Position numbers and translations under genes: made by a program. Below the pieces are notes generated by a model, which saw nothing but the letters and a program-made list of their open reading frames with translations, was not told where the DNA came from and did not search any database. This document shows positions 40,732-49,029 of a DNA stretch of 64,000 bases, in pieces. Positions within the stretch are counted from its first letter, which is position 1; every line of letters begins with the position of its first letter. The DNA comes from Streptomyces sp. V3I7 (GTDB taxonomy: Bacteria > Actinomycetota > Actinomycetes > Streptomycetales > Streptomycetaceae): positions 4,319,001-4,383,000 of the forward strand of contig NZ_JAUSZK010000001.1 in assembly GCF_030817495.1 (NCBI RefSeq). The letters are read 5' to 3'.

Positions 40732-40858
40732 GTCGCGTCCTTCCGATGGGGTTGCGCGCGCTTTTTGACGCGCTCTTGTCAGAATTCGTGTACCGGATCA
40801 GTGTTGTCAATGACTGGTGCCGACCAGCGGATCGGGTGCTGACGAGATTGGCGCGAAG
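40732..40858. promoter_or_regulatory. Divergent promoter region of the putative RiPP locus
   Basis: An AT-richer 127 bp between the precursor peptide and ThiF-like genes. It contains TTTTTGACGCGC, TTGTCAGAATTCG and TTGTCAATGAC, so -35-like elements exist on both strands. No confident -10 was assigned. Confidence 0.4.
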
Positions 40859-42103
40859 ATGACGGTGCAAGCGATGCGGCTGCCTCGGATCAAGCCGGAA
40901 CACCGGGCCTACCGGACGGTGGACGGCCACGTCAGGATCGGCAGCGTCGTCCACGGCATCGGGTCCGAGGTCAAGGATCCCGACGGCTGGGTGTGGACGC
41001 TCGTGCAGGCCATGGACGGTACGCGGGGCGTGTCGGAGATCGTGGCCGAGGTCGCCCGCCGCCATCCGGAGACGGATCTGACGGCTCCCGACATCGCCGA
41101 GGCGATGACGGACCTCGCGCTGGCCGGGTTCGTGGAGGACGCCGGCGTCGCGCCGCCGGCCGAGCTGTCCGAGCGGGAACGGGAGCGGTACGGCCGGAGC
41201 ATGACACTGCTGCGCTGGATGGACCTGCGGCCGCGGGAGAGCGCCTGGGAGCCGCAGGTACGGCTGTGCCGCGCGCGGGTGCTGCTGATCGGCGTCGGCG
41301 GTACGGGCGGCGCCGCCGCGCGGGACCTGGTGGCGTCCGGGGTGGGGCTGCTGCACTGCGTCGACCCGGACGTCGTCGAGCTGTCCAACCTCAACCGGCA
41401 GACCCTCTATCGCGAGGACGACCTCGGGACGCCCAAGGTGGACGCGGCGCTGGCGGCGCTGCGCGCCCTGAACTCCGACACGACGGTCACCGGCGAGCGC
41501 TGCGAGGTGCGGGGGCCGGCGGACCTCGAAGCCCTGCTGACCGGCGGCTCCGGCCCCGCCCGCTCCGGCTCCGCCGCCCCCGGCCGCTCCGGCGGCCCGC
41601 CAGGCCGCTCGGCCCCCGCCTCCGACCACCCCACCCCCGCCTACGACGCCCTGCTGCTCGCCGCCGACCGTCCCGCCACGATCCGCCGCTGGGCCAACCA
41701 GGCCTGCCTGGCCACGGGTACGCCGTGGGCCGAGGCCGGTTACCGTGGCCCGCGGGTGAGTGTCGGGGTGTTCACGCCCGGGCGGGGCGCGTGCTGGGAG
41801 TGTCTGCGTCTGGCCGAGGCCGAGCGGCGCGATTTGCGGCTGCCGCCAGGTCAGGACGAGGACGTCGCCTCGCCCCGGATGCCGTGGAATCCGGTCAACG
41901 CCGTCACCGCAAGCCTGTCGGGCAGTCTGCTGGCCCACGCCGCCATCGCGCTGCTGTGCGGTGTGCCGCCGATCGACCCCGGCTGCCGGTTCGGCGTCAA
42001 CCTCATGCTGCCCGGCGACCCGGTCATGGAGCGCTCGGAACGGCGTACCGACTGCCCTGCCTGCCAGGGCGAACCGGCCCCGCGACCGGCGGGCGCCCGG
42101 TGA
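40859..42103 (+). CDS. ThiF/E1-like adenylating enzyme with PqqD-like N-terminal domain
   Basis: A 414-aa protein. Residues about 15-95 look like a PqqD/RiPP-recognition domain (TLVQAMDGTRGVSEIVAEVA, then IAEAMTDLALAGFVED). From residue 138 there is an E1/ThiF fold: nucleotide loop GVGGTGG at 145-151, acidic Asp169, the SNLNRQTLYREDDLGTPKVDAA signature at about 176-197, and a zinc knuckle of Cys312-x2-Cys315 with Cys399-x2-Cys402. Such enzymes adenylate a C-terminal carboxylate or a side chain, as in microcin C and pantocin. It overlaps the M50-like gene by 4 bp. A Gly/Ser/Pro-rich insert lies at 228-260. The start could be ATG 40874. Confidence 0.85.
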   Translation: MTVQAMRLPRIKPEHRAYRTVDGHVRIGSVVHGIGSEVKDPDGWVWTLVQAMDGTRGVSEIVAEVARRHPETDLTAPDIAEAMTDLALAGFVEDAGVAPPAELSERERERYGRSMTLLRWMDLRPRESAWEPQVRLCRARVLLIGVGGTGGAAARDLVASGVGLLHCVDPDVVELSNLNRQTLYREDDLGTPKVDAALAALRALNSDTTVTGERCEVRGPADLEALLTGGSGPARSGSAAPGRSGGPPGRSAPASDHPTPAYDALLLAADRPATIRRWANQACLATGTPWAEAGYRGPRVSVGVFTPGRGACWECLRLAEAERRDLRLPPGQDEDVASPRMPWNPVNAVTASLSGSLLAHAAIALLCGVPPIDPGCRFGVNLMLPGDPVMERSERRTDCPACQGEPAPRPAGAR

Positions 42104-43305
42104 CGGACACCGCCGCCCGGATCGACCCGTCGGCGTGCGTGCTGCTGCACGACCTGGCGGTGCGGCGGGACCGGGACGAGTGGATCGTCGGCCGCATGGC
42201 GACCCGTACCTTCGTCGCCCTGCCGGAGGCCGGGGCGCGGGCGGTGCAGCTGCTGGGCGACGGGCTGAGCGTGGGCCGGACCGCGGAGGCGCTGCGGGCC
42301 GAGACCGGCGAGGAGTTCGAAGTCGCGGATTTTGTACGTGACTTGGCGGCGCTCGGGTTCGTGGCGCGCATCGGCGACCGGCTGGTTCCGGATGATCAGT
42401 CGCCGTCCGCCTCCCTGTCGTGGCTCCGCCCGCACCATGTCCGGCTCGCCCTGCATCCCGCGCTCCCCGTGCTCGTCGGGCTGCTGCTGGCGGCCGCCGT
42501 CGTCGTCCTGGTCCGCCGGCCCGACCTCGTGCCGGGCTACCGTGACCTGCTGTGGAGCCCGCACGGCAGCCTGGTCGTGCTGAGCGCGGCGGCAGCCGGG
42601 TGGGTGCTGCTGCTGGCCCACGAACTGGCGCACCTGGTCACCGCCCGCGCCGCGGGGGTGCCGGGGCGGATGCGGCTGGGCACCCGGCTGCAGTTCCTCG
42701 TCATGCAGACCGACATCAGCGGCATCGAACTCGCGCCCCGCCGCCACCGGTTGACCGCCTACCTGGCCGGCATCGCCCTCAACCTCTCCGTCGCGTCGGC
42801 CCTCGTCCTGACCCTGGCCGTCACGGACACCGGGACGACGGCCCATCGGCTGGAGTCCGCCGCACTGCTGCTGGCCCTGCTGCCGCTGCCGTTCCAGCTG
42901 ATGGTGTTCACGCGCACGGACCTGTACTTCGTCCTCCAGGACCTCACCGGCTGCCGCAACCTGTACGGCGACGGGCTCGCCTACGCCCGGTACGTCGCCC
43001 GGTGCGCGGTGCGCCCGCCCCGTTCCGGCCGGACCGCCCGGTCCGAGGACCCCAGCACCCGACTGCCCCCGCACGAGCGCGCGGCCGTACGCCTCTACAG
43101 CGTCGTCCTCGTGGCCGGCACCGTGGTCTGTCTCGGCTTCATGGCCGCCGTCACGCTGCCCGTGGACGTCACCCTGCTGGTCCGCGCGGTACGGGGCCTC
43201 GGGCCGGGGCACGGCCTCGCGCGCAACGCCGACGCGGCGGCCGTACTGATCACCCTGGGCGGTGCCAACGTGCTCTGGGCGGTCACCTGGTGGCGCAACC
43301 GCTGA
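42100..43305 (+). CDS. PqqD-like domain fused to M50-type membrane metalloprotease
   Basis: A 401-aa protein. Residues 1-95 resemble a second PqqD-like domain (WIVGRMATRTFVALPEAGAR, then VADFVRDLAALGFVARIGD). The rest is an integral membrane protein with about six segments. The zinc site is HELAH (His174, Glu175, His178), and the third ligand is probably Asp274 in RTDLYFVLQDLTGCRNLYGDG, a pattern seen in M50-like proteases linked to peptide natural products. It may cut or export the modified peptide at the membrane. GTG 42100 overlaps the ThiF-like stop (GTGA). The LysR gene follows after 83 bp on the same strand. Confidence 0.83.
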   Translation: MTDTAARIDPSACVLLHDLAVRRDRDEWIVGRMATRTFVALPEAGARAVQLLGDGLSVGRTAEALRAETGEEFEVADFVRDLAALGFVARIGDRLVPDDQSPSASLSWLRPHHVRLALHPALPVLVGLLLAAAVVVLVRRPDLVPGYRDLLWSPHGSLVVLSAAAAGWVLLLAHELAHLVTARAAGVPGRMRLGTRLQFLVMQTDISGIELAPRRHRLTAYLAGIALNLSVASALVLTLAVTDTGTTAHRLESAALLLALLPLPFQLMVFTRTDLYFVLQDLTGCRNLYGDGLAYARYVARCAVRPPRSGRTARSEDPSTRLPPHERAAVRLYSVVLVAGTVVCLGFMAAVTLPVDVTLLVRAVRGLGPGHGLARNADAAAVLITLGGANVLWAVTWWRNR

Positions 43306-43388: not shown

Positions 43389-44390
43389 ATGGTGAGTATG
43401 AGTTCGCTGCGGACTCTGCAGGAGCTGAGACGGCAGGGGTCGGTGCACGCGGCGGCCCAGTCGATGCACTTGGCCCCGTCGTCGGTCTCGCACCGCATCA
43501 AGGGGCTCGCCGAGGCGTGCGGCATGGCGCTGTACGAGCGGGACGGCCGGGGCGGACGCCTCACCGACCAGGGCGAGATGGTGGCCGAACTGGCCGAGGA
43601 AGTAACCAGGTTGTGGGACCGCGGGCTGACCGGGGTGCGCAACGGCGGCGGTCCGCTGCCCCGGCGCACGATACGCATCGGCGCGTTCCCCTCCGCTCTG
43701 GGCGAGTGCGTGCTGCCGGCCGTCGAACGGCTCAGGGACACAAGGAACTTCCGCATCGAGGTGCTGGAGGTGGACCCGCGCGAGGCGGCCAGCCTGGTGG
43801 AGCACGCGCAGCTCGACATGGTCGTCACGCTGCGGGAGATCCTCGACACCGACCTGGCCGGCGACCCCCGGCTCACCTCGTACGGCCTGTGGCGCGAGCC
43901 GTTCGCGCTCGTCATGCCCAAGGGGTTCATCGCCACCGGCAAGGAGTACGACTCCGCGCGCAACTACGCCGATCTGCCCTGGGTGTTGCCGCGCCGTGGC
44001 TCCGCGTGCGACCAGATGGTCGGGCGCTATCTCGCGCGGCTCGGCATCCGCCCGCGCGCGGCGGCCCGCTCCGACGACTGGTCGATCGTCCAGCGGATGG
44101 TCCGGGCGGTCCAGGCCGTGACCCTGGTGCCGGTCTCGTGTCTGCACCCGGCCGACGACGGCGTACGGGTGGTGGCCCTGCGCGAGGGCGAGGTGCTGGA
44201 GCGCACCGCCGTCCTGCTGGAGTCCGCGGACACGGCCGGCTCGCGCTGGCTTCCCGCCGTACGCCGTGAACTGATGGACTCCGTCGGGCGGATGGCGGAC
44301 CGGGTGGCGCGCTCCGCCCAACCGAAGCTGGGCGGAGTCGTGCCCTACTCGCCGAAGGGGGCCGGCGCCGAGGCGCCGTCGTTCGGCTGA
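43389..44390 (+). CDS. LysR-type transcriptional regulator
   Basis: A 333-aa LysR regulator. The N-terminal helix-turn-helix reads LRTLQELRRQGSVHAAAQSMHLAPSSVSHRIKGLAE (adjacent pieces), and the sensor domain starts at RTIRIGAFPSALGECVLPAVERL. A Pro-rich tail ends the protein. It sits between the RiPP-like genes on its own strand and the oxygenase operon on the other, and its last 46 bp overlap the end of the PNPOx-fold gene tail to tail. It could control either set. LysR proteins usually sense a pathway intermediate. Start may be ATG 43389 or ATG 43398. Confidence 0.87.
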   Translation: MVSMSSLRTLQELRRQGSVHAAAQSMHLAPSSVSHRIKGLAEACGMALYERDGRGGRLTDQGEMVAELAEEVTRLWDRGLTGVRNGGGPLPRRTIRIGAFPSALGECVLPAVERLRDTRNFRIEVLEVDPREAASLVEHAQLDMVVTLREILDTDLAGDPRLTSYGLWREPFALVMPKGFIATGKEYDSARNYADLPWVLPRRGSACDQMVGRYLARLGIRPRAAARSDDWSIVQRMVRAVQAVTLVPVSCLHPADDGVRVVALREGEVLERTAVLLESADTAGSRWLPAVRRELMDSVGRMADRVARSAQPKLGGVVPYSPKGAGAEAPSFG

Positions 44391-44968
44391 CGGGGGAGGA
44401 TGCCCTCGTACTCGGGCTTGAGTTTCCAGTCGGGTGTGGGTGGTCGGTAGTCGGGGCGCGGGCAGTGCGCCGAGTGGGTTCCCGCGGCACGGTCGTGCAG
44501 ATAGCGCGGGCAGTTCTCGAAGACCTCCCGGATCGCGACGCGCAGCACCGCCTCCGCGCCCGGATGCCCGTCGAGGGACTCGGGGCCGGTGTACAGCTCG
44601 CACCGCCCGTTCACCCGGAGCTTGGCCTTGCGCCCGGGGAAGAGGAAGAGCAGGCCGACCTCGGGGGAGGACCGGGCGTTGCCGAGCGTCCGGTACATCC
44701 CGTTGCCGTCGTAGCTGGGGATCTCCAGGGTGCGCGGGTCGTGCACCCGGATGAAGCCGGGCAGCCCGCCCTTGTACGAGCACTCCGGGTGGCCGTCCGG
44801 GGAGACCGTCGCGAGGTACACCTCGTCGGCCTCCCCGATCCACTCGACGTGCTCGGGGGAGAGGTGGTCCTCCACGTAGTTCGCCGCGATGTGGTCGGCG
44901 AGCCTCTCGGTGCCGAAGGTGCCCTGAAGGCGCCGGCTGTCCTCGTGGTAGAAGTCGTCCGGCTTCAC
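44345..44968 (-). CDS. Pyridoxamine 5'-phosphate oxidase-fold protein, last gene of the oxygenase operon
   Basis: A 207-aa PNPOx-like protein. After FYHEDSRRLQGTFGTERLADHI, the split barrel reads EADEVYLATVSPDGHPECSYKGGLPGFIRVHD (two pieces), GNGMYRTLGNARSSPEVGLLFLFPGRKAKLRVNGRCEL (two pieces), then an Arg/Cys/His region ENCPRYLHDRAAGTHSAHC. It resembles FMN-binding oxidase-like proteins of unknown reaction. GTG 44968 overlaps the desaturase stop (GTGA), so it is translationally coupled to it. The stop lies inside the 3' end of the LysR gene. Confidence 0.8.
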   Translation of the reverse strand: MKPDDFYHEDSRRLQGTFGTERLADHIAANYVEDHLSPEHVEWIGEADEVYLATVSPDGHPECSYKGGLPGFIRVHDPRTLEIPSYDGNGMYRTLGNARSSPEVGLLFLFPGRKAKLRVNGRCELYTGPESLDGHPGAEAVLRVAIREVFENCPRYLHDRAAGTHSAHCPRPDYRPPTPDWKLKPEYEGILPRQPNDGASAPAPFGE

Positions 44969-45891
44969 GGGCGCTCCATCAGGGCCCGGCAGACGGACCA
45001 GTAGAAGGCCGGGTAGGTGCGGGTGACGTACACCGCGCGCCGCTCGACCTCGGGGTGGCGCTCCCGCAGCCGGTTGATCGGCACCGTCATGGCCGCGTGG
45101 TGCTCGACGTGCAGGTTGTTGCCGTTGGTGAACCAGGTGCTGAACCAACTGCCGCTGATCGAGCGGGTGTTGCGCAGTACGTCCGCGCTCTCCGTCTCGC
45201 ACAGCAGGTGTTCCGGCAGCTCCACCAGGAAGTGCAGCGGCACCGCCACGGCCAGCGGCAGCAGCCACAGCCTGAGCACCTCCTCGCCGCCGCCCAGGAG
45301 GCTCACGCAGACGAGGCCCAGCAGGGCCGCGCCGAAGAAGCGGTACTCGGCGACGATGTCCTGGCGCATCCGCTCGGAGCTCTGCCCGTCCGTGTAACGC
45401 CAGGTGTTCCGCCAGGAGAGCCAGATGTCGCGGAGCGTCCGCGCCACCCGCGGGTAGTCGAAGAGCCCCCCGAGCATGCCGCGCCAGGTGACGCCCTGCC
45501 GGGTGTCGAAGCCGAAGAACTCGGTGTCGTTCGGCGTGCCCAGGTAGCGGTGGTGCTGGAGGTGGCGGACGCGGTAGTGGGAGTAGGAGACGAGCAGGGG
45601 GAGGCCGAGCGGGACGCCGAAGAAACGGTTCACGGCGGACCGGCGGAAGGCCGAGTGGTGCAGGCACTGGTGCTGGAGCTCCACCCCGTGGGTGTAGCCG
45701 GCGGCCAGGAGCACGACGCCGGGTGCCGCGAGGAGGAACGAGTCCTGGAGCGCCAGCCAGGCGCCGGTCGCGAGGATCGTGGCGAGGACCGCGAGCTTGC
45801 CGACGAACACGCGCTCGTCGCGTAAGGAGACGCGGCATCTCTCGAAGAGCGGGTCGGATGCGCGTCCGACCCGCTCCGTCAGCTCGGTCAT
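44965..45891 (-). CDS. Membrane fatty-acid desaturase-type diiron oxygenase
   Basis: A 308-aa membrane protein. Three His boxes are intact: His74-x3-His78-His79, His110-x2-His113-His114 and His261-x2-His264-His265, with an extra His228. Hydrophobic segments lie at about 33-50, 53-70, 90-103, 187-200 and 208-225. The family holds acyl desaturases, hydroxylases and N-oxygenases. Here it follows a soluble diiron oxidase gene by two bases and precedes a PNPOx-like gene with overlap, which points to a small-molecule pathway more than bulk lipid metabolism. ATG 45891 is the start closest to the upstream stop. Confidence 0.87.
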   Translation of the reverse strand: MTELTERVGRASDPLFERCRVSLRDERVFVGKLAVLATILATGAWLALQDSFLLAAPGVVLLAAGYTHGVELQHQCLHHSAFRRSAVNRFFGVPLGLPLLVSYSHYRVRHLQHHRYLGTPNDTEFFGFDTRQGVTWRGMLGGLFDYPRVARTLRDIWLSWRNTWRYTDGQSSERMRQDIVAEYRFFGAALLGLVCVSLLGGGEEVLRLWLLPLAVAVPLHFLVELPEHLLCETESADVLRNTRSISGSWFSTWFTNGNNLHVEHHAAMTVPINRLRERHPEVERRAVYVTRTYPAFYWSVCRALMERP

Positions 45892-45893
45892 GG

Positions 45894-46856
45894 TCAGCGC
45901 ACGCCCTTCATCTGCTGCCAGATGCGCTCGTAGTAGGCGTTGGCGACCCGCACCCGGGTGAGCACCCCGAGGCTGATCTCCCGCAGCAGTTCGGGCGACT
46001 CCTGCACGAGGGGGACGAAGACGCCCTCGAACCACTCCGCGCCGTGGTCGGCGTCGACGTGCACGTGGATGCGCTGGTAGTGGATGACGTCCTCGGGGAC
46101 GCCGAGCCGGGCGCAGCCGTCGACCATGGCCTGGAAGCGGGGCGAGGCGCTCTGCTCCAGTACGCCCATGGCGCCCAGGGCGCGCGGGACGAGGTGACGG
46201 TGGATGCCGTACATCAGCAGCAGGCAGGCGTTCTCGTACACCTCGGAGCAGTAGAGCTCGACGTCGTCGATCCGGAGTTCGGCGAGCTGTTTCCGCATGT
46301 ATTGGGCGGAGTGCTCGAAGAGGCGCGTGTGCATGTCCTCGAGCTTTCCTTCGCCCATCTCGTCCCAGTAGTTCTCGGCGATGGTGAGCTTGGTGTTTCC
46401 CTGGGTGCCGATCTGCACCATGGCCATGAGATCGTCGAACTTCGAGTCGACGAGTTCCTCGGCCATGAAGAAGAGCGCGATCTCGCCCAGCGTCGCCTCG
46501 TCGGCCAGGTATTCGCAGAATTCCGGCTGTACGTGGTTGTCCGCGACCTCCAGGAACCAGGTGCGGAACTCCTCTGCCGAGCGGGGGAGGGTGGCGGGGT
46601 CGACCTGGCGGTCCTCCCAGGCGAGCCAGGCGTCCTCGATGGCTGTGATCTGCGGGTCGGCGTTCAGCCGGGGTATCGAACCGAACGTCTCGGGGCCGCC
46701 CATGTAGGCGAGGTAGTGCTCGTGGAGCCGGCGCAGCAGGGCGAACCGGATCTCCAGGTCGGGCTTGGCATCCACTTCCCGAGGGAAGGCCTTCACTATG
46801 TCGGCGTCAGTGAAGGCCCGTGCCGCTTTCGCCCCACCGCATATCGGATCGGACAC
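45894..46856 (-). CDS. Haem-oxygenase-like diiron oxidase (iron-containing redox enzyme family)
   Basis: A 320-aa all-helical protein of the haem-oxygenase-like diiron oxidase type (the group of UndA, BesC and SznF). Candidate ligands lie in FFMAEELVDSKFDDL (Glu133, Glu134), AENYWDEMGEG (Glu161), DMHTRLFEH (His176), SEVYENACLLLMYGIHR (Glu209) and the cluster HVHVDADHGAEWF (His264, His266, Asp268, Asp270, His271). Members cut C-C bonds of fatty or amino acids, or oxidise N. GTG 46856 has GGAG about 13 bases upstream. It is 2 bases from the desaturase start and about 190 bp after the 2-oxoglutarate oxygenase stop. Confidence 0.82.
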   Translation of the reverse strand: MSDPICGGAKAARAFTDADIVKAFPREVDAKPDLEIRFALLRRLHEHYLAYMGGPETFGSIPRLNADPQITAIEDAWLAWEDRQVDPATLPRSAEEFRTWFLEVADNHVQPEFCEYLADEATLGEIALFFMAEELVDSKFDDLMAMVQIGTQGNTKLTIAENYWDEMGEGKLEDMHTRLFEHSAQYMRKQLAELRIDDVELYCSEVYENACLLLMYGIHRHLVPRALGAMGVLEQSASPRFQAMVDGCARLGVPEDVIHYQRIHVHVDADHGAEWFEGVFVPLVQESPELLREISLGVLTRVRVANAYYERIWQQMKGVR

Positions 46857-47044
46857 TGGAATTTCTCCGTTCGGGTTCAGAAGTATTTCCCGAGGTGCAT
46901 TTTCCGTAAGGTCAACAACATGGTCGAAGCAATTCCCGTCCCCGGGCGCGGCGTTGCCGTCGCCCGAAGCGTCTGGGCGAGATTCTGCGGCATCATCGTG
47001 TTGTTTTCAACGACTGTTCGAAAAGCCCGTCGGCCGGCGGGATT
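46857..47044 (-). promoter_or_regulatory. AT-richer gap inside the oxygenase operon, possible internal promoter
   Basis: 188 bp with unusual AT content (for example AAGTATTTCCC and TTGTTTTCAACGACTGTTCGAAAAG). TTGACC occurs on the minus strand near 46910 as a -35 candidate. No convincing -10 at standard spacing. It may allow separate control of the diiron oxidase, desaturase and PNPOx genes. Confidence 0.35.
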
Positions 47045-47788
47045 TCAGTCGCGACGGGTGATGACGGCGATGAAGGTGTCCCGATGGCCCACTATGTCCT
47101 CGCTTGTCGGCGTGACCGGGGTGACCCCGTGCATCGTCCGTTCGTCATCGTTGAACAGAAACTGGCCGGGCGGCTGCAGCGCGACGCTGACCACGCGCTT
47201 GCCGTGTCGGCCGTCGCCCAGCGGCTCGTACAGGCCGCTGACTCCGCCGTCGACGGCGTGCCGGCCGACGACGACGGTGAAGACGTAGTCGACGCCGTCC
47301 CGGTGCACGCCCTCGGGCGCCGGCTTCCCGGACCGGCCGGCGCGGGCGAGTATGCGGTTCTGGAAGACCTGGGCGTACCAGGTGGCTCCACCGCGCCCCT
47401 CCGTCTCGTCCAGTTGACGGGCGCACCAGGACAGCAGGGTGTGGACGACGGGGCCGTTCGCCACCTCGTCCTCGAAGGGCTCGAAGAGCCGGTCCACGCC
47501 GCCGTTCAGGTAGTTGATGTCCTTGGCCTGGGTGTACGGCACGTGCGGCAGCAGGCGTACGGAGTCGGCGGTGCAGTCGAACTCCGAGTAGCGGCGCAGC
47601 CGGTAGTCACCGCCGTCGGCCATGAACGGGTCGAGCGCCAGCCGCTCCCAGGAGCTGAGGAACCGCTGCCACTCGGGGCCGCGCGTCAGCTCCTCCCCGA
47701 ACTCCTCGTCGAGGTCTCCCGCCGCCCAGCCCTCCTCCCGCAGTCCTGCCGCGATCGTCGTGCTCGCCTTCACGTTCACTGCCGTCAT
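47045..47788 (-). CDS. Fe(II)/2-oxoglutarate dioxygenase, PF10014-like (BsmA/IDO type)
   Basis: A 247-aa protein. Iron ligands are His162 and Asp164 in [12 protein letters not shown] and His220 in [10 protein letters not shown]; Arg236 ([14 protein letters not shown]) is the likely 2-oxoglutarate-binding residue. The YRLRRYSEF start block and [18 protein letters not shown] match the family that includes isoleucine 4-hydroxylase, whose substrates are free amino acids. Because the Asp of the H-x-D motif is kept, hydroxylation is more likely than halogenation. It overlaps the EamA gene by 4 bp (ATGA), so synthesis and export are coupled. ATG 47788. Confidence 0.83.
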
Positions 47789-48768
47789 CCCTTCTTGGTC
47801 TCGCCCGCCGGTGCGGCGGATGCCGCCTTGGGCGTGGTGTCTGTACGGTCGGAACTCGCCGCGTCCGGGCCCTGGTTCGCCGTGGGGCGGTCGCCGGTGA
47901 TCCGGCCCGGTGCCTTGAAGGCGTCGGGGCGGATGACGGCGACGACGCCGCCGAGGATCAGCGCGCCGCCGATCCAGTCGGCCGTGGTGGGCACCTCGCC
48001 GAGCGCCAGCCACGCGGTGGCCATGCCGACCACGGGCACGAGCAGGGAGAAGGCGCTGACGGAGGAGGCCGTGTTCGACCTGAGCAGCGAGGCCCAGATG
48101 CCGAACGCGACGATCGTGGACAGCACGACGGTGAACGCCAGCGCGCCGACCCCCTGCCAGTCCAGCGAGGCGAGCGCCGCCCGGTCCCGCTCCGGGCCCT
48201 CGAAGACGAGCGAGAGCAGCGTGAGCGGCACGGGCGCGGCCAGCGCGGACCAGATCGTCAGCTTGAAGCCGTTCTCGGGCTTGGCGATACGGGTGGTGAT
48301 GTTCGCCGCCGCCCAGCAGGCACCCGCCGCCACCACCACGAGCAGGGCGCCGAGCGAGACGGAGCCGGTGCCGAGCGCGATGACGGTCAGGCCGGCGACC
48401 CCGGCGAGGACGCCCGCCGCGACGATCGGGCCCGGCCGCTCGCGCAGCACCAGGAAGGCGAAGAGCACGGTGAACGCCGCCTGCCCCTGGAGCACGAGCG
48501 AGGCCAGCCCCGGCGGGACGCCCAGGTTCATGCCCACGAAGAGCAGCCCGAACTGGCCCGCGCCCTGGAGGATCCCGACCAGCGCGACCAGCTTCCAGGG
48601 CGCCCCCGGCCTGCCGACGAAGAACACCGCGGGCAGGGCGACGAACGTGAACCTCAGCGCCGCGAAGAGCAGAGGCGGGAAGGAGTCCAGCCCGACGTCG
48701 ATGACGACGAAGTTCGTGCCCCAGATGAAGACGACGAGCAGGCCCAGGAACATATGGCGGCGCGGCAC
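47785..48768 (-). CDS. EamA/DMT-family transporter
   Basis: A 327-aa membrane protein with ten hydrophobic segments in two EamA repeats. Motifs are [20 protein letters not shown] and [11 protein letters not shown] in the first repeat, and [30 protein letters not shown] (two pieces) with [15 protein letters not shown] in the second, followed by a polar tail. Family members export amino acids and other small metabolites. It is the first gene of the oxygenase operon, so export of the pathway product is likely. GTG 48768 is preferred because AGGGG lies about seven bases upstream; a TTG at 48774 is possible. Confidence 0.88.
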
Positions 48769-49029
48769 GGGCAACCCCTAGTGCAGAAGTGCGGAGCATC
48801 CAGTGTCGAAGTGGCGGCCCGCATCCCCAAGGGGCGGTCGACAACTTCGAACACCGTCTCAACTCCCGGTGACGTTCTGCTGCCAAAACCTCTCATAAGG
48901 GGTGTGATCGCAGCCCGGGACGCGCTGACTCTGCGACGCCGTCGAACGGTCGGCCCGGTGCGCTTACCATGCGCTTATTCGTACGTCCGTTCAGCGCTGT
49001 CCCCGCCCGAATCCAGGAGCACGGTGCCC

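Follow-up and report, generated by a model that had tools for sequence, protein, structure and literature searches.

A conserved five-gene Streptomyces set combining two diiron enzymes, a PF10014 dioxygenase and a flavoprotein, and its possible amino acid product

The window analysed here is a stretch of 64,000 nucleotides from the genome of Streptomyces sp. V3I7 (G000:C1:4319001-4383000). It contains an operon of five same-strand genes encoding an EamA-family exporter, a PF10014 Fe(II)/2-oxoglutarate dioxygenase (OG), a haem-oxygenase-like diiron oxidase/oxygenase related to HrmI (HDO), an integral-membrane diiron desaturase/hydroxylase (DES), and a PNPOx-fold flavoprotein of the flavin mononucleotide (FMN) type. 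A LysR-family regulator gene faces the operon. The five-gene operon is a real conserved unit, and its co-location is beyond chance because the host genome has three PF00487 genes, the family of DES, in 6.55 Mb and the same genes recur together elsewhere. Complete or partial versions of the set recur in distantly related bacteria ranging from Streptomyces to Vibrionaceae and Burkholderiaceae. The reading that we favor, by a modest measure, is a free-standing pathway that makes and exports a small, N-oxygenated, non-proteinogenic amino acid. HDO/PF10014 amino acid pathways are a known kind, to which a membrane diiron enzyme and a flavoprotein are added here. Literature searches limited to open-licence papers gave no description of this gene set, and it may be described elsewhere.

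Gene organization, recurrence and fusions

Pfam matches are above cut-off for all six gene products. On the minus strand lie the genes for EamA (47785-48753, ATG start, with a possible alternative TTG start upstream at 48774; PF00892, 106.2 bits), OG (47045-47788; PF10014, 193.7 bits), HDO (45894-46856, GTG start; PF14518, 127.7 bits against a cut-off of 28.9), DES (44965-45891; PF00487, 133.8 bits), and PNPOx (44345-44968, GTG start; PF01243, 42.7 bits). The LysR gene (43389-44390; PF03466, 80.1 bits; PF00126, 55.5 bits) is on the plus strand and overlaps the PNPOx gene by 46 bp. An earlier reading of the sequence alone had listed five same-strand genes with a convergent LysR gene, among them an exporter and a PF10014-like enzyme, and all of these were recovered. 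It was also right that most junctions measure 2-4 bp. By their coordinates, EamA/OG and DES/PNPOx each overlap by 4 bp, and HDO and DES are 2 bp apart. The exception is a 188-bp gap between OG and HDO (46857-47044, minus strand), which from its coordinates is a possible promoter of HDO-DES-PNPOx. Because of this gap, the operon may comprise two transcription units. The same reading had reported no peptide synthetase or ketosynthase; consistent with this, Condensation and ketoacyl-synthase profiles have no match within the window, whose ATP-grasp genes were not searched for.

Searching 84,980 species genomes for two HDO peptide patterns yielded 40 loci, and neighbors were counted at E<=1e-5 in the fetched flanks (up to 10 kb per side, some shorter). 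DES is near the HDO relative in 21 loci, PNPOx in 17, OG in 9, and EamA in 5 (one a 106-residue match). DES and PNPOx occur together in 14. Eight loci combine DES, PNPOx, and OG (L023, L029, L033, L040, and L042-L045), and these belong to both Actinomycetota and Pseudomonadota. Thus, the neighborhood analysis bears out the conserved clustering on which the sequence-only reading depended. EamA completes the set in two of the 40 loci, those of S. olivoreticuli (L023) and Trinickia (L042), the latter with the order DES-PNPOx-HDO-OG-EamA-GNAT-ArgC-LysR. In Tumebacillus (Bacillota, L060), HDO and PNPOx are accompanied by a distant DES.

The control consisted of 18 Streptomyces loci with approximately 35%-identical HDOs. 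Sixteen were refetched with about 10 kb per side where the contig allowed, leaving out L013 and L016. Fifteen of the 16 control HDOs belong to the HrmI clade described below; the remaining one, L080 (= L011), falls outside as a long branch. DES and EamA are found in none of the 16 loci, PNPOx in one (a 76-residue match), and OG in 11. Among the 18 actinobacterial loci of the window's group (L023-L040), DES is near in 15, PNPOx in 12, and OG in four. DES and PNPOx are therefore commoner in the window's group (Fisher p 4.5e-7 and 3.7e-4, respectively), with p values that are only a guide because the loci are related. HDOs of >60% identity are present in 3 of 295 Streptomyces genomes, the window's own included. 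A search widened around three proteobacterial hosts (E<=1e-40, query genomes counted in) found an HDO match in 1 of 369 genomes of a class, 2 of 247 of a family, and 7 of 299 of another family. Among the eight new loci, the gene set is found only in L106, from the family of Aliivibrio (Vibrionaceae), and seven Burkholderiaceae loci have HDO, ATP-grasp, and pyridoxal phosphate (PLP)-decarboxylase genes without DES.

PNPOx is fused to either diiron enzyme in several genomes. PNPOx and HDO share a single open frame in Moritella (L043, 496 amino acids; P0241 is 99% identical over PNPOx) and in L106 (506 amino acids), and P0242 is a third protein of this type. P0241 and P0242 are two of 62 proteins found by one search. 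DES and PNPOx form a single open frame in Frankia (L040, = P0121), and the same fusion is seen in P0122-P0124. In P0125, PNPOx is fused to a PF04199 cyclase. Its PNPOx part is 66% identical to that of the window, and the fusion matches the way in which HDO, PNPOx, and cyclase genes follow one another in L037-L039 and on a Streptomyces plasmid. The DES and cyclase fusions P0121-P0125 are the best five among the 120 PNPOx-matching proteins listed. Many of the weaker matches join PNPOx to other domains, so it is a mobile module; a shared function with the diiron enzymes is supported by the fusions without being proven.

The partners around the core vary. In 12 Streptomyces and Actinomadura loci (L024-L031, L033-L036), HDO-DES is followed by a small protein of 114-144 amino acids, which has a GGTWW-like motif in most members; the single member scanned matched no Pfam family. 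Some loci have an Asp/Glu racemase, an EamA or MFS transporter, a PF04199 cyclase, a nitroreductase, or a PreATP-grasp ligase; these identities derive from a Pfam scan of one member per cluster (two for the ligase). The overall pattern looks like one core with changing tailoring. As a side observation, L037-L039 and L081 (5645-11172) carry PhyH-HDO-PNPOx-PF04199 cyclase but not DES. L038 and L081 also have a TauD gene, and L081 sits on a 223-kb linear Streptomyces plasmid. A gene of the MbnB/TglH/ChrH family (L043 11396-12238) adjoins the Moritella set.

Kinship of the encoded enzymes

The sole strong solved relative of HDO in a PDB search is HrmI (9n1a, E 7.4e-35). E133, E166, H176, H264, D268, and H271 of HDO are identical in HrmI and invariant in 50 grouped rows from five groups. 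We take these six residues, from the ligand spacing of SznF, to be the diiron ligands, presumably a 3H/3C set. D137, D141, D142, K156, D165, R220, E234, R240, Y260, and R301 are also the same in HrmI and all five groups, and HrmI therefore has most of the conserved polar residues of the window HDO in addition to the six presumed ligands. The comparison covered 50 of 62 rows, as L011, L053, L055, L061, and L062 were dropped beforehand and L003, L004, L017, L041, L057, L058, and L060 fell in no group. A review gives the HrmI ligand set as 3H/3C, and reviews describe the conversion of Lys to 6-nitronorleucine by HrmI and BelK, the side-chain amine becoming a nitro group (PMC10764440, PMC13108848). 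In a 62-row tree, a 38-row clade with an SH-aLRT of 100 includes the window HDO and is separate from the 18-row clade of 9n1a/HrmI (92); this tree was made by a quick method, gave long-branch warnings, and includes HrmI as a partial sequence only.

In OG, H162, D164, H220, and R236 are invariant across the compared rows and correspond to the PF10014 HxD...H pattern with a conserved Arg that probably binds 2-oxoglutarate. The best PDB matches are 3pl0 (uncharacterised), 9dq0/8jms, and 9dqp. L-isoleucine-4-hydroxylase (6lnh) matches OG very weakly (E 0.14), and the 25-row OG tree had no isoleucine hydroxylase row. The window OG belongs to a six-row clade (99/99) with those of S. olivoreticuli, Frankia, S. 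nanshensis, and S. himastatinicus, the last present under two locus identifiers. Five proteobacterial OGs form a separate clade (86/94, not starred). A 12-row clade (100/100) joins 9dq0 to OGs encoded beside HrmI-like HDOs, and the window OG is not inside it. 9dq0 is read as a BelL-type enzyme because it is near-identical to the OGs that partner HrmI-like HDOs; BelL and HrmJ themselves are not among the rows. OG is thus kin to enzymes presumed to be cyclopropanases of the BelL/HrmJ type, but is placed outside their clade. BelL-type enzymes, its nearest named kin, act on an amino acid. The HDO and OG trees both set the HrmI-type enzymes apart from those of the window. They are not identical, as the proteobacterial rows form one group for OG and two for HDO.

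DES, PNPOx, and EamA fall below the cut-offs of their closest specific NCBIfam models. For DES, the nearest curated model is that of GntB, the guanitoxin L-arginine gamma-hydroxylase (NF041365), at 42.5 bits in the window and 33-75 bits across the window and five relatives scanned; the cut-off is 380, so DES is not a member. PNPOx scores 92.8 bits against the MSMEG_1061 FMN-dependent PPOX subfamily model (TIGR04025, cut-off 170), and EamA 179.8 bits against the O-acetylserine/cysteine exporter model (cut-off 472). A homologue of the LysR protein in S. olivoreticuli is 64% identical, and LysR genes are also near the gene set in L042, L043, and L046.

The proposed pathway and its alternatives

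The analysis shows the genes, their recurrence and fusions, the presumed ligands, and the kinship of the enzymes, whereas the substrate, the order of reactions, the product, and the target are inferred. By analogy with HrmI, HDO would oxidize a free L-diamino acid, Lys or Orn, at its side-chain amine to an N-hydroxy compound and onward toward an oxime or nitro group. OG would then abstract hydrogen from a side-chain carbon of the N-oxidized intermediate, resulting in hydroxylation or ring closure, and DES would hydroxylate or desaturate another carbon. An unsaturated product, as the sequence-only reading proposed, may arise via DES. PNPOx might process an (N-O) intermediate or supply electrons to both diiron enzymes. 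EamA would export the product, and the LysR protein would control the genes. This reading draws on HrmI as the one strong solved relative of HDO, on the closeness of OG and HDO in the window and in 11 of the 16 control loci, and on the separation of the window's enzymes from the HrmI-type ones in both trees, besides the co-occurrence counts, the fusions, the HalD gene beside a Pseudomonas HDO relative, and the ArgC genes. If this is true, the set represents a further branch of the HDO and PF10014 partnership, one that adds a membrane diiron enzyme and a flavoprotein. It is compact enough for reconstitution and would offer a lead on a flavin partner common to two diiron oxygenases, as well as a testable link to the arginine pathway.

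The link to arginine comes from the proteobacterial versions. An ArgC gene is present in all six proteobacterial loci with HDO, DES, and OG (L042-L046, L106), including L046, where these genes occur without a PNPOx match. The cluster ArgCs of L042-L046 score 370-421 bits against TIGR01851 (cut-off 229.85) and keep the GCYPT cysteine motif. They are 47-75% identical to each other, 35-40% to the other copy of Trinickia, and 25-30% to three housekeeping copies; the L106 ArgC is 50% identical to that of L045. Another argC is found elsewhere in all five host genomes tested (L042-L046), with an in-frame stop in the Winslowiella match. GNAT is a neighbor in L042, L044, L045, and L046 (Pfam) and in L043 and L106 (clustering or alignment), and ThiF in L043-L046 (clustering) and L106 (alignment).

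The ArgC neighbor hints at an arginine-pathway target. In the proteobacterial loci, the added GNAT and ArgC suggest that arginine biosynthesis is where the product, or an N-acetylated form of it, acts, with the extra ArgC serving as a spare, insensitive target. A spare target plus N-acetylation would be the simplest reading of the two genes. Phaseolotoxin (with ArgK) and mangotoxin, antimetabolites of the arginine pathway, are comparable in that the producer has an extra arginine-pathway enzyme, although their enzymes and target differ and the extra enzyme here is ArgC, in the proteobacterial versions only. The mangotoxin pathway also uses an HDO (PMC13185094). A bolder version is a long shot. 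It supposes an electrophilic nitro amino acid derived from Orn or Lys (e.g., nitro-unsaturated or nitro-hydroxylated), made without an assembly line and across phyla, with the FMN protein partnering two diiron oxygenases. Its GNAT-acetylated form would mimic N-acetylglutamyl phosphate and trap the ArgC cysteine, and the second ArgC would protect the producer. If ArgC trapping is true, ArgC would be a new natural antibiotic target.

Alternatively, the proteobacterial ArgC, GNAT, and ThiF could be biosynthetic, activating and reducing the carboxylate of an N-acetylated, glutamate-like intermediate with no part in self-resistance. The mutual identity of the five cluster ArgCs, their retained cysteine motif, and the frequency of ThiF and GNAT as partners agree with such a role. 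However, no aminotransferase is found among those neighbors scanned by Pfam (several were left unscanned), and Trinickia has no ThiF by clustering. Additionally, phaseolotoxin, with its ArgK, sets a precedent for a producer that carries an additional target enzyme (PMC4530439). A biosynthetic role for these genes is somewhat unlikely, although it deserves serious attention.

Several findings weigh against the favored N-oxygenated amino acid pathway. DES is missing from 19 of the 40 loci, including those of Pseudomonas (L050-L056, L059) and Burkholderiales (L047-L049), and from seven of the eight further loci of the widened search. Among the 18 actinobacterial loci, OG is absent in 14 and PNPOx in six, and OG is rarer than in the control loci (Fisher p 0.014, with the same reservation as above). 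PNPOx is also joined to SRPBCC, ferredoxin reductase, GNAT, and other domains in many of the weaker listed matches, and the fusions are a weaker argument because these domains are unrelated. Among 20 aligned close homologues, one (P0052) shows a gap of two residues at the presumed ligand H264. OG has V166-D167 where the 12-row clade of HrmI partners has mostly H-E. HDO is placed outside the HrmI clade and OG outside the presumed BelL/HrmJ clade; therefore, reaction and substrate may differ. Lastly, gene clustering places ArgC in no actinobacterial locus, and the single full-length argC of the window genome is at a great distance from the window. The ArgC clue is therefore not directly applicable to Streptomyces.

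The set might instead be an HrmI/HrmJ-type nitrocyclopropane pathway, in which HDO would convert Lys to 6-nitronorleucine, OG would form the cyclopropane, and DES would then hydroxylate or desaturate the product. Nitrocyclopropylalanine is formed by pairs of HrmI-like HDO and PF10014 enzymes. As with HrmI/HrmJ and BelK/BelL, of the nitrocyclopropyl amino acids in hormaomycin and belactosin, HDO and the PF10014 oxygenase are encoded close together in the window and in 11 of the 16 control loci. The kinship of HDO with HrmI, and of OG with the PF10014 partners of HrmI-like HDOs, also agrees with this explanation. Against it stand the separate clades of both enzymes, the different residues beside the HxD motif of OG, and the lack of OG in 11 of 15 actinobacterial loci with HDO and DES. 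Unlike the window, the HrmI-type loci have no DES and one partial PNPOx match, as judged from the 16 control loci (15 with HrmI-clade HDOs). In the hormaomycin and belactosin pathways, nonribosomal peptide synthetases (NRPSs) or ATP-grasp ligases incorporate the amino acid into a peptide; the window has no NRPS Condensation match. A nitrocyclopropane product is improbable.

HDO could also be a lyase or desaturase, similar to BesC or PolF, that acts on a hydroxylated amino acid and yields an olefinic amino acid without N-oxidation. These enzymes belong to the same superfamily, and DES could supply the hydroxylated substrate. In the chlorolysine pathway, BesD supplies chlorolysine to BesC, and an HDO relative in Pseudomonas (L050) adjoins HalD ('Halogenase D'), an ATP-grasp ligase, a Na/H exchanger, and EamA (Pfam). 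However, the match of HDO to BesC is marginal (E 0.04 in the PDB search; 19.2 bits against a cut-off of 500 for the BesC lyase model NF042919) compared with that to HrmI, whose presumed ligands it shares. Moreover, the six gene products have no match to a halogenase family in Pfam or NCBIfam. The chance of this explanation is slim, and the cleaved amino acid suggested by the sequence-only reading is not supported, on the same grounds.

A detoxification or catabolic operon, or a DES that acts on membrane lipids outside any natural-product pathway, is very improbable: a LysR gene plus an exporter is also found in stress operons and most known PF00487 enzymes act on lipids, but the distribution in Streptomyces is patchy, HDO has plasmid copies, and the tailoring partners and ligases vary.

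Other known systems were considered as counterparts and set aside. For an acivicin-type pathway, with N-oxidation of Orn, a search of open-licence papers brought up none that names acivicin. The passages found on the azaserine/diazo and N-nitroglycine pathways contain no desaturase or pyridoxamine term. The phaseolotoxin Pbo cluster has a PF10014 protein together with an ATP-grasp ligase, but the text describing it does not use the terms heme oxygenase and redox enzyme, and it was rejected as a counterpart.

Candidate regulatory site, neighboring genes and related clusters

A 16-bp site before HDO (47007-47022, minus strand), inside the 188-bp gap, is suggestive of a LysR operator. A similar site precedes the S. 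olivoreticuli HDO (L023 9891-9906), with a weaker copy before the EamA of that strain. At <=3 mismatches, the window has two matches where 0.64 are expected, a count that 12 of 100 shuffles attain, and L023 has two against 0.34 expected (3 of 100 shuffles). The other loci, searched over 6-13.5 kb, have only 3-4-mismatch matches. The candidate is a lead only, because the pattern was drawn from the same sites and 12 of 100 shuffles reach the window count.

Just upstream of the LysR gene (40817-43305), a gene for a ThiF/E1-like protein with a weak, below-cut-off PaaA-like N-terminal match is followed by one whose product matches M50 peptidases below cut-off, perhaps a peptide-modifying system. 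The pair was considered because the proteobacterial sets include a ThiF, and is treated as separate, since gene clustering found no homologous gene beside the S. olivoreticuli operon. The S. olivoreticuli genome has a second full-length argC (G300:C1:5422948-5423973), approximately 110 kb from its set.

Related clusters accompany HDO relatives elsewhere. The Pseudomonas HDOs (L050-L056, L059) belong to the 38-row clade of the window, and most of the other Pseudomonas loci (L051-L056, L059) share the gene clusters of L050 by gene clustering. Burkholderiales clusters (L047-L049, L083, L107-L113) combine HDO with ATP-grasp proteins and a PLP decarboxylase, and L048 also encodes a second, borderline HDO-like protein and a carbamoyltransferase (Pfam).

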